Shown in pieces: positions 31,936-55,016 of a stretch of DNA of 59,294 nucleotides (the first letter of the stretch is position 1; every line of letters starts with the position of its first letter). The position numbers and the translations under genes are program-made. The notes under the pieces are model-generated. The model was not told the origin of the DNA and searched no databases. It saw only the letters and a program-made list of their open reading frames with translations. Source of the stretch: Candidatus Altimarinota bacterium (GTDB taxonomy: Bacteria > Patescibacteriota > Gracilibacteria > JAHISY01); contig JAQVAZ010000003.1 of NCBI GenBank assembly GCA_028690585.1, forward strand, positions 1-59,294. Reading direction: 5' to 3'.

Positions 31936-32028
31936 GTCATTGCGAAGGCGAAGCCTGAAGCAATCCCGAAAATTTAGCGTGAGACTTACGAGACTGCTTC
32001 ATCCCGCTTCAGCGGGATTCGCAGAGAC
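31936..32028. repeat. Imperfect inverted-repeat element between recX and rnc
   Basis: The 93-bp element begins GTCATTGCGAA and ends TTCGCAGAGAC, with GAAGCAATC facing GACTGCTTC inside, so its arms are imperfectly complementary. An inner palindrome ATCCCGCTTCAGCGGGAT lies near the 3' arm. It is preceded by TTTT like the other GTC-led elements of this window. Confidence 0.65.
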
Positions 32029-32051
32029 AGTATTCTTTTCATTCCATATTC

Positions 32052-32105
32052 CAACTTCAACAATTACAACAGCTAGAACAATTTGAACATTTACAACAAT
32101 TTCTT
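32052..32105. repeat. 9-bp-period array at the 3' end of rnc
   Basis: Six 9-mers in a row fit CANNTNNAA or near it on the plus strand (NTGTT[C/G][A/T]A[A/G] on the minus strand). The array runs through the last codons and stop of rnc (stop at 32091). Related arrays are at 42361-42399 and 42503-42547. The bases before it, ATTCCATATTCCAACTT (32041-32057), recur at 51063-51079. Confidence 0.7.
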
Positions 32106-32768
32106 TAGCGCTTCACTCGCAGCAGCTTGCTCAGCAGATTGCTTATTTGCACCTTTACCTTTTCCAAATAAATCTTTACCAACATAAGCTCCCATCTCAA
32201 AAACTTTATCGTGATCTGGCCCACTCTCACTCAGTAATTCATAGCGCGGAGTAATCGCGAGTTTCTCTTGCGCCAATTCTTGGAAATGTGACTTCGCATC
32301 CACCTGGCTACCCTCAGCAATAATTTTTTCTAGGCTTGGAAGTAAAAATGTTTCCACAAATTTTCGCGCTGGCTTGTAGCCGAGATCGAGATAAATCGCA
32401 CCCAGCACCGCTTCGAAAGTATTTGCGAGTAAATAAGGTTTTTCTCTACCACCACTGCGCGCTTCACCTTTGGAGAGTTTGAGATATTCTCCAAACTCTA
32501 AATCTTTTGCCACTTCTGCCAATCTCTCCCCCTTCACTAATGCGCTACGCAGCGCAGTCATTTCTCCTTCTGGCTTCGTAGGAAATTTCGCGTAGAGATA
32601 CTCGGTAACAATTAATTCCAAAACGGCATCACCGAGAAACTCCAATCTTTCATTGTGCTGAATCTCACCCTTCGCTTCATTGAGATAGCTGCGGTGAATG
32701 AAAGCTGTTTCTAGTAACTGTGGATTTTTGAATTCCACTCCGATCTTGGTTTGGATAGCTTTAAGCAT
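32091..32768 (-). CDS. rnc: Ribonuclease III
   Basis: Cleaves double-stranded RNA in rRNA processing. The protein is 225 aa with the catalytic signature ERLEFLGDAVLEL starting at residue 40 and the second acidic site ANTFEAVLGAIYLD. The C-terminal double-stranded RNA binding domain runs from about 155 (DAKSHFQELAQEKL) to the end. It overlaps nusB by 8 bp, so rpmF-nusB-rnc may form one unit. Its last codons fall within a 9-bp-period repeat array. Confidence 0.97.
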   Translation of the reverse strand: MLKAIQTKIGVEFKNPQLLETAFIHRSYLNEAKGEIQHNERLEFLGDAVLELIVTEYLYAKFPTKPEGEMTALRSALVKGERLAEVAKDLEFGEYLKLSKGEARSGGREKPYLLANTFEAVLGAIYLDLGYKPARKFVETFLLPSLEKIIAEGSQVDAKSHFQELAQEKLAITPRYELLSESGPDHDKVFEMGAYVGKDLFGKGKGANKQSAEQAAASEALKKLL

Positions 32769-37865: not shown

Positions 37866-37891
37866 GAATTTTATTAGAAATAAATTTTGTC

Positions 37892-37923
37892 ACCCCGAGC
37901 CTGTCGAGGGGTTTTATTTTTCT
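37892..37923 (+). terminator. Rho-independent terminator after the pilin-like gene
   Basis: ACCCC (37892-37896) pairs with GGGGT (37908-37912), followed by TTTATTTTT. The hairpin starts with the GTCACCCCGAGC motif also seen at 54801, so it may be a repeat that doubles as a terminator. Confidence 0.6.
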
Positions 37924-37982
37924 TGCGACAAACCCAAACTTAATCCTGTTTTCTTAATCCTTAATCCTCTTTAAGCGCGTGT

Positions 37983-40920: not shown

Positions 40921-42348
<1,428 letters not shown>

Positions 42349-42360
42349 TAAAGCTTCGCT

Positions 42361-42399
42361 TTGTTCTAAATGTTCTAGCTGTTGAAGTTGTTCTAAATG
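42361..42399. repeat. 9-bp-period array downstream of atpD
   Basis: Four 9-mers of the NTGTT[C/G][A/T]A[A/G] type, such as TTGTTCTAA and ATGTTCTAG, lie 12 nt after the atpD stop. It is the inverted partner of 42503-42547; the two arms could form an imperfect stem of about 40 bp. Confidence 0.7.
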
Positions 42400-42502
42400 A
42401 GAGAATCTTTTAGGTGTTTAGAAAATTAAGTTTTTGCGATTTTGTGGAAAATAAATTTCTTGAATTGCTAGAGAGTTAAAAAGTAGGGAGAAATCCAAAA
42501 AA

Positions 42503-42547
42503 CAATTCCAACATTTTGAACAGTTAGAACAATTTGAACATCTATAT
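42503..42547. repeat. 9-bp-period array, inverted partner
   Basis: Four full units of the CANNTNNAA type (for example CAATTCCAA, CATTTTGAA) plus a partial fifth, in opposite orientation to 42361-42399 and 104 bp away. Between the arrays there is A+T-rich sequence with no gene. Together they fill most of the 253-bp gap between atpD and the IPT/TIG gene. Confidence 0.7.
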
Positions 42548-42601
42548 GCTTGATATTTCAGGCCTTTTTTGTTAGAATACTCCGAACTTTTCACCAAAAA
42601 A

Positions 42602-43984
42602 ATGCTTGAAAACCAAAACCAAATCTTCGGCAGTAAACTCACTCGCGCAGTCAATCCGCGCCTCAAGGTAATCCTTGGCGGATTCTTGCTAGTAGGAGTT
42701 TTCGCCAGCCTTCTCGCTTTCAGTAGTGGTAAGGAATCTTCTACGGAATTATTGAAATCCTCAGTCACTGGCACAACTCCAGTGATTACCTCTGTTTCCC
42801 CTACCGATGGAGAGATTGGTAGCTCGGTTTATATCACTGGTAAAAACTTTTCCGAAGTAGCTACTCAGAATCTCGTGAAGTTTGGAGATGCTACCGCCAC
42901 GGTAAAAGCAGTAGGTTACGCTGGAGACGATATCATGCGAATTGTAGCGGTAGTGCCAAACCTCACTCCCAATCAAAGTTACGATATCACTGTGAAAAAT
43001 CAAAACGGCACCGCTATCAGCGATGCGCAGTTTGAAGTTAGCGCTAGCGAAGTAGCAATCCCAAGCATCACTCGTTTCACACCAACTAGTGGCTATGCAG
43101 GAGATAAGATTTACATTTATGGAGATAATCTCGCAGCGAATGCAGAAGAGAATAAAATCGAATTAGATACTGAAAATGGAAATGGAATCATCGTAAATCA
43201 CCCAGAGTTTGTGCATATCGAAGGAAACCTCGCTTTGAAGTTTGCGATTCCCGAAGGTGCTATCACTGGCAAAATCCATCTCACAGTAAATGGAGTTGCA
43301 GCCGAAAGCGTAACAAATCTAGAAGTTTTGATTCAAGCGCCAGAAAACCCAGTAGTAGAAACTCCCGCAGCAGAAGTAATTCCATCTGATACCATTTCCG
43401 AAAATCCTACTGATACAACAACTCCTGCAGTAGAAACAACTAGCTTGATAACAGAAACTCCCGCTACTACTCCTGAAGCTCCAATAACAACTTCAGTTGA
43501 CACTGGCAACATTCCACAGAATTTACAAGAAACTTCCGATGCTACTGGCTGGAGGCTGACTTGGGAGAAACCAAGTTTGGAAGCTGCTTACACTTACAAT
43601 GTTTATTACTCTACAAGAAGTGGCAGCTATCTCCACCGTTTCTCTGTGGATTCTGTTACCACTACTCCATTGGGAAATAATTTCTCTGCCAATCAGCACT
43701 ACTATCTTGTAGTAACTGCGGTTGATACAGATGGAAATGAAAGCAATCCAAGCAATGAAGTTTCATTTGTGTTTAATGGAATCCGCAATACTACAGTAGC
43801 TGCTTTCACTCCAATGGAAACTCCTACGGTTGCGGAGATGCATGCAGCCGCTGATACACCAATCGTAACTGTAGAAGCACCGAAACTTTCCGAGGAAGGC
43901 CCAGCGGAAACCTTACTAATCTCTGGAATCCTCGCAGCACTTTTCTCTGGATGGTTTTTCCGCCGAAAGATTTGGGCGAAATAA
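42602..43984 (+). CDS. Membrane-anchored surface protein with IPT/TIG and fibronectin-III domains
   Basis: 460 aa from the ATG at 42602. An N-terminal membrane segment (LKVILGGFLLVGVFASLLAF, about residues 20-40) leads into two IPT/TIG immunoglobulin-like domains (about 57-145: PVITSVSPTDGEIGSSVYITG; about 154-245: PSITRFTPTSGYAGDKIYIYG). A Thr/Pro/Glu-rich stalk (about 250-315) is followed by a fibronectin III-like domain (DATGWRLTWEKPSLEAAYTYNVYYSTR). The C-terminus is GPAETLL, a hydrophobic helix and a basic RRKIWAK, like a sorting or anchoring signal but without LPxTG. Probable adhesion or surface scaffold. Confidence 0.82.
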   Translation: MLENQNQIFGSKLTRAVNPRLKVILGGFLLVGVFASLLAFSSGKESSTELLKSSVTGTTPVITSVSPTDGEIGSSVYITGKNFSEVATQNLVKFGDATATVKAVGYAGDDIMRIVAVVPNLTPNQSYDITVKNQNGTAISDAQFEVSASEVAIPSITRFTPTSGYAGDKIYIYGDNLAANAEENKIELDTENGNGIIVNHPEFVHIEGNLALKFAIPEGAITGKIHLTVNGVAAESVTNLEVLIQAPENPVVETPAAEVIPSDTISENPTDTTTPAVETTSLITETPATTPEAPITTSVDTGNIPQNLQETSDATGWRLTWEKPSLEAAYTYNVYYSTRSGSYLHRFSVDSVTTTPLGNNFSANQHYYLVVTAVDTDGNESNPSNEVSFVFNGIRNTTVAAFTPMETPTVAEMHAAADTPIVTVEAPKLSEEGPAETLLISGILAALFSGWFFRRKIWAK

Positions 43985-50945: not shown

Positions 50946-50946
50946 A

Positions 50947-51059
50947 CAGTTGCCAGCTAGCAGTTACAAGTTTGCAGTTAGGTTACGAAAAAAATAAGAG
51001 GGTGATTCTAAAAAACTGCAGACTGAAAACTGCAGACTGAAAACTGCCAACTGAAAACT
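50947..51059. repeat. 14-bp tandem repeat with an inverted partner
   Basis: Three 14-mers (AAAACTGCAGACTG, the same, then AAAACTGCCAACTG) run from 51012 to 51053, with a partial fourth. The segment 50947-50981 (CAGTTGCCAGCTAGCAGTTA and on) is their inverted counterpart. The arms can pair into an imperfect hairpin. The array lies between the nitroreductase and yebC genes. Confidence 0.75.
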
Positions 51060-51112
51060 ATAATTCCATATTCCAACTTAATCCTTAGTTCTTAGTTCTT
51101 AATCCTGTAGAT

Positions 51113-54753: not shown

Positions 54754-54822
54754 TTTGCGCAGCAGTAGAAGAAGATTATTCGTTTGTAGTTTTTTAATTT
54801 TGTCGCCCCGAGCTAATCGCTG

Positions 54823-54878
54823 GTCGGGGTTTCCCGAAGGGAAGCCTTCGGCTTGTAACCCCGACTTTTTGTTTTTTG
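54823..54878 (+). terminator. Branched terminator after the channel gene
   Basis: GTCGGGGTT (54823-54831) pairs with AACCCCGAC (54857-54865) and is followed by TTTTTGTTTTTTG. Two small palindromes (CCCGAAGGG and AGCCTTCGGCT) sit inside the loop, so the structure may branch. The sequence just upstream, TTTTGTCGCCCCGAGC, matches the GTC-led repeat family. Confidence 0.75.
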
Positions 54879-54931
54879 ATTAGCACCTACTTGAAAGGCT
54901 GTAGTGACAACTGAAAAATTTTGCAAAAACA

Positions 54932-54952: not shown

Positions 54953-55016
54953 CTACGCTATTTCTTAATCCCTGCCTACTGGCAGGCAGGCTTTGTTCTT
55001 AATCCTTAATCCTTTT

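Follow-up and report, generated by a model that had tools for sequence, protein, structure and literature searches.

Degenerate 9-bp repeat arrays with a fixed strand polarity at coding ends in a Patescibacteria genome

Downstream of atpD in a 1.05 Mb genome of a Patescibacteria family, two short arrays of a 9-bp unit face each other, and a third array lies at the end of rnc. What kind of element are these arrays, and why do they lie at gene ends? Coordinates refer to the window, the whole stretch of 59,294 nucleotides that was analysed. The atpD gene (40930–42348, + strand; TIGR01039 in NCBIfam) ends with a TAA stop codon at 42346–42348, just 3' of which lies a perfect small hairpin, AAAGC-TTC-GCTTT (42350–42362, + strand). 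This hairpin lies at the coding-end side of the first array arm, which runs from about 42359/42361 to 42402 on the − strand (TGTT on the + strand), with its AACA end toward the atpD stop. A spacer at 42403–42499, which has no good BLAST match elsewhere in the genome, separates it from the second arm, five AACA units on the + strand at 42500–42544. The AACA end of the second arm points to a promoter-like sequence, TTGATA-17-TAGAAT (42550–42578, + strand), of a gene for an IPT/TIG and fn3 domain protein (42602–43984, + strand, start set at ATG), which lies 3' of the pair. The third array is single; its five AACA units (32058–32102, + strand) cover the final codons of rnc (32091–32768, − strand; TIGR02191 in NCBIfam) together with its stop. 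A preliminary description of the window placed the three arrays at 42361–42399, 42503–42547 and 32052–32105, and all are present, read here as 42361–42402, 42500–42544 and 32058–32102. Its inversion of the two atpD arrays, TGTT against AACA on the + strand around about 100 bp between atpD and the TIG-domain gene, was borne out, as was the overlap of the third array with the end of rnc, where the stop codon is covered.

The unit had been described as NTGTT[C/G][A/T]A[A/G]. The 9-bp repeat stands, but SAACANYTN, written on the AACA strand, is the better consensus. Conservation of its core, AACA..T, is about 99%: positions 2–5 and 8 are unchanged in 88–89 of 90 units, and although the pattern search itself requires the core, it tolerates three mismatches, of which the arms use almost none. 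Positions 1, 6 and 9 are variable, and position 7 is a pyrimidine that also varies. A three-unit pattern with at most three mismatches gave 73 matches in the whole genome against 3 for a reversed control pattern, and these matches represent 22 distinct array arms at 18 loci. The idea of a dispersed element, which was to be dropped if the unit were not enriched outside the three sites, is thus upheld genome-wide. Within the window, two-unit matches with at most two mismatches numbered 23, whereas dinucleotide shuffles gave 7.5 (sd 2.8). Zero-mismatch two-unit matches were confined to the three arrays. BLAST with the atpD element found three further short forms at stop codons, in which the hairpin AAAGCTTCGCTTT remains together with one or two units; the AAAGC-TTC-GCTTT hairpin also lies beside other arrays of the genome. 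None of the 22 arms is inside a coding ORF. The arrays look like dispersed, non-coding elements, unlike genes or ordinary terminators.

Alignment of the 22 arms requires almost no gaps, and their length is near-constant, mostly 4–5 units. Most share a common unit order, AAACAATTM CAACAGYTA GAACAATTT GAACATTTA GAAC, followed by AAAGCGAAGCTTT or by other sequence. Mean best-register identity between arms was 7.38 of 9 positions, against 7.18 (sd 0.03) when unit order was shuffled, and none of 300 shuffles reached 7.38. By BLAST within the genome, arms from different loci are alike over 46–62 bp at 83–91%. Because arms match across loci and the atpD spacer does not, it is the arm that is copied and not the whole pair. 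Given the shared unit order, the arrays look like copies of one cassette of 45–60 bp, often beside the small hairpin. Among 67 arrays from nine genomes, hairpins with a GAA loop were found near 9 arrays upstream and 10 downstream, against backgrounds of 8.6% and 6.0%, an overall weak signal. The string AAC-GCGAAGC-AACA recurs in three lineages, with 9 matches against 1 for the control.

The position of the arrays follows a rule. Plotting the 9-mer sites against gene ends, as the preliminary description had proposed, showed that in 15 of the 22 arms the AACA strand has its 3' end no more than 25 bp from a stop, and in 4 no more than 25 bp from a start; the opposite array end was this close to a stop once and to a start once. 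The repeated placement at gene ends is therefore real across the genome. Because the gene ends used here come from mechanical ORFs, stop distances are firm and start distances rough. The same held for the 67 non-coding arrays of the nine genomes, where 38 AACA ends were no more than 25 bp from a stop and 16 no more than 25 bp from a start, compared with 2 and 3 of the opposite ends (54 of 67 AACA ends against 5 of 67 opposite ends). A two-sided sign test of 38 against 2 gave about 1.5e-9 with the arrays treated as independent. Since the rule holds at stops and at starts, the relevant feature is the coding end, not the direction in which a gene is transcribed. The rnc and prmC arrays even provide the stop codon of the gene. 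The abutted genes of the genome have no common function, and the median intergenic gap in the window is 30 bp. As a separate observation, the edges of 54 gaps of 80–600 bp in the genome are skewed in composition (at left edges, G outnumbers C by 563 to 383; at right edges, C outnumbers G by 531 to 395), and these counts include the arrays.

Single arms in the nine genomes follow the polarity rule as well as paired arms do, and array polarity is independent of arm pairing. Inverted pairs occur at 4 of the 18 loci of the genome, and most arms there have no partner. The long stem suggested for the atpD pair stood in one respect: when folded, the pair was more stable than shuffled sequences (z −3.1), and other pairs gave −4.3, −4.5 and, in genome G004, −7.7. 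As the key feature of the element it did not stand, with so few loci paired and no better fit between cognate arms. The fit of cognate arms had a mean rank fraction of 0.57 (a rough measure, with energies uncorrected for arm length), and in this genome non-cognate arms on average fit better. Together with the predominance of single arrays, this indicates that the hairpin is not the conserved feature. One of the four, an inverted pair with arms about 350 bp apart that encloses an S23-type gene, gave no duplex signal. Located between rpoD and dnaB (L034:3572–3925, G000:C6), the enclosed gene encodes a four-helix bundle (PF05635), and an apparent remnant of an S23-type gene lies inside a pair at another place in genome G001 (L077:2159–2402, G001:C14). 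A link between the arrays and the S23/IVP family PF05635 was rejected, as 29 other S23 loci examined had no arrays.

Comparison with relatives points to recent gain. Arrays are carried by four of the six family genomes. Orthologues in the five sister genomes were located by a joined query of the 18 gene ends. Of the adjacencies, 15 persist in one or more sisters, and none of the gene ends concerned showed an array there, long sister gaps being seen in part. This absence marks the arrays as lineage-specific gains, most clearly at atpD/TIG and gpm/nadE. In genomes G002 and G003, the order of atpD and the TIG-domain gene is kept, and a similar promoter sequence lies 14–20 bp after the atpD stop; in the present genome, about 200 bp with both arms lie between stop and promoter. 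The closeness of the promoter to the stop in both sisters means that arms and spacer are extra here. The gpm/nadE gap is 105 bp long and nearly all element, an inverted SAACANYTN pair, against about 5 bp in G005. In G003, the same gap contains a different 9-bp-period run (L412:344–430; TTATCCACC TTACTCAGC TTTATTCGC CTTACCCAC). The sister genomes have arrays of their own at other genes, with identical polarity. On these comparisons, the arrays are gained and lost quickly and do not represent a conserved signal of particular genes.

Beyond the family, a four-unit scan of GTDB genomes found many coding repeats among its matches, and non-coding arrays also in Magasanikbacteria, Yanofskybacteria, Aquiflexum and Bacteroidales, among others. 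Ten matching genomes followed up in full had 2 to 64 matches each against 0–2 control matches; as these genomes were picked because they matched, the counts show dispersal and not frequency. In evenly drawn surveys, a match was found in 6 of 288 genomes of the class and 5 of 380 of the phylum, some of them coding repeats, so the array family is rare and patchy. The Aquiflexum genome (Bacteroidota; G292, e.g. L193, L444 and L454) had 64 three-unit matches, often after CAACGCGAAGCAGA and near other repeats.

A literature search for a 9-mer of the SAACANYTN type found nothing relevant. Short-period arrays of 7 bp that abut ORFs have been described. In Xanthomonas (GGGAATC) and Nostoc (GGGGA(C/T)T), most are either on the coding strand, 0–50 bp past a stop and in some cases overlapping the stop codon, or on the non-coding strand, 0–50 bp ahead of a start; they are unlinked to gene function or insertion sequences, and the gaps vary between close species (PMC4692102). 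SAACANYTN arrays resemble these heptamers as dispersed, intergenic short-period arrays with the same polarity rule. They differ in having a 9-bp unit that is degenerate with a strict core and does not form G-quadruplexes, in occurring often as inverted pairs in some genomes, and in being found in Patescibacteria. In Beggiatoaceae, sets of 2–6 TAACTGA units are intergenic and tight to coding ends, with the AAC strand toward the coding end; of 170 sets, 147 are directed at a start and 12 at a stop, and the unit also occurs sporadically in some Cyanobacteria and Bacteroidetes (PMC4679880). SAACANYTN arrays are likewise short, intergenic, tight to coding ends and sporadic across phyla. However, TAACTGA is a near-exact 7-bp unit mostly at starts, whereas the present unit is 9 bp long, degenerate, mostly at stops in its own genome and found in inverted pairs. 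Common to them and to the published 7-bp arrays is the orientation of the G-poor strand toward the coding end. With a period of 9 and variable positions 1, 6, 7 and 9 in place of a near-exact 7-bp unit, SAACANYTN is a variant that belongs to neither named family, and by analogy it can be classed as a 9-bp degenerate relative of the ORF-abutting arrays of Xanthomonas, Nostoc and Beggiatoaceae. Separate reports on a few bacteria have described arrays of this kind with fixed polarity without explaining them. The present case adds a degenerate 9-bp family in Patescibacteria, the same rule in several lineages, and orthologous gaps without arrays, so that array origin and the reason for the single strand polarity become testable by comparative genomics.

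REP/BIME elements and MITEs are also dispersed and intergenic, with inverted arms possible and small hairpins nearby; the present arrays differ from them in their internal 9-bp iteration and in having no palindrome common to all copies. REP elements combine a 20–40 bp palindrome with a Y1 (RAYT) transposase in the genome; here the arms are not palindromic, and Y1 transposase does not track the arrays: G003 has arrays without a Y1 match and G002 has five Y1 matches without arrays. Mobilization by Y1/RAYT was therefore rejected, and no mobilizing enzyme was identified. A CRISPR array was rejected because the units are contiguous and degenerate. The arrays were also rejected as promoters, since, judged from the letters, the start-to-start distances of their TTGAAC/TAGAAC hexamers are multiples of 9 and do not give the usual 17-base spacer.

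The reading that we favor, giving it about an even chance, is that the arrays derive from a dispersed non-coding cassette, copies of which enter short gene gaps and survive only there, and that they are to be grouped with the 7-bp ORF-abutting arrays. The cassette would be about 45–60 bp long, with up to five SAACANYTN nonamers and often a hairpin at the coding-end side. Recombination, template switching or a transposition-like event would, we infer, spread the copies, and the internal unit number may later be altered by repeat gain or loss. Selection would remove insertions that harm coding sequence and leave arrays against coding ends, and the copies need not serve the abutted gene. A transcript across facing arms could carry an imperfect stem and may secondarily affect the mRNA 3' end. 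Removal of damaging insertions explains the closeness to coding ends; by itself, it does not explain why a single arm has polarity.

Passive copying alone also does not predict that the core positions are kept far better than the others. For this reason, the main functional rival is a multi-site binding platform, in which a protein would sit on each AACA..T core (UGUU..A in RNA), one every 9 nt next to a stop or start codon, and influence translation, mRNA ends or transcription. The free positions 1, 6 and 9 around the kept core, a near-constant site number, and the same core and placement in unrelated lineages are consistent with it. It is nevertheless unlikely on balance, since position is not conserved between sister genera, the abutted genes share no function and most related genomes have no arrays. 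Moreover, the same polarity at stops and starts places the units on opposite mRNA strands, so one RNA-binding role cannot cover both.

A MITE-like nature of the paired forms, with terminal inverted repeats as iterated transposase binding sites and single arms as remnants, is distinctly unlikely. It would fit the identical outward polarity of all pairs, their insertion between conserved neighbors and the S23-type gene inside one of them. However, the arms are repeated and the spacers are not, arms within a pair are no more alike than arms from different loci, many arms are single, and no transposase was found inside a pair; inspection by eye of the two best empty sites recognized no clear target-site duplication.

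That the pairs serve as RNA hairpins, whether terminators, 3'-end stabilizers or RNase III targets, is very doubtful. Their folding energies agree with this function, but most arms are unpartnered and cognate arms fit no better than others. A terminator search found no site at the rnc array, and its sole match, 42548–42563, falls beyond the arms, where it shares sequence with the promoter; Rfam returned one tRNA over the window and no match at the arrays.

The idea that several unrelated array families, the 9-bp SAACANYTN and the 7-bp ones elsewhere, arise from one repeat-laying process at breaks in gene gaps also has a low probability. G/T-rich repeats would be laid outward from both sides of a break, for example by 3'-end extension on a repeat template, giving geneA-(TGTT)n...(AACA)n-geneB. 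If true, this would explain the closeness to coding ends, the polarity at stops and starts, the occurrence of single as well as paired arms and the lack of matching between arms, and it would represent an undescribed healing or filling of intergenic breaks in bacteria. The low estimate reflects that reverse transcriptase, the sole enzyme class tested for it, is absent; addition templated by this enzyme was rejected, as none of the six family genomes has an RVT_1 match.

It is highly improbable that the arrays are simple slippage-made repeats or remnants of coding repeats (E/Q-Q/H-L). In favor of this are a unit length divisible by three, a frame that reads Q-L-E, and the coding repeats that account for many exact matches in other genomes; against it, unit order is shared and length near-constant across loci, the third base of GAA never varies, unlike a synonymous site, and polarity to coding ends is fixed. 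Of the Q-L-Q/E-Q frame without a start noted earlier, the E/Q-Q/H-L frame is seen, but other copies have in-frame TAA stops, and a coding repeat was rejected on these stops, the absent start and the polarity.

The preferred reading, a dispersed cassette, concerns the SAACANYTN arrays; the window also contains other repeats. Dispersed-looking palindromic sequences (TCATTGCGAAGGCGAAGCC... and CACCCCGAGCCTGTCGAGGGG) occur in gaps with arrays at 31945–32045, 37890–37915 and 54790–54880. Arrays with a 7-bp period lie at 50946–51112, 37953–37968 and 54998–55014; they include AACTGNN units, forming an inverted pair at 50946–51062, and CTTAATC units at several gaps. The few 7-bp arrays that were counted likewise point at coding ends.
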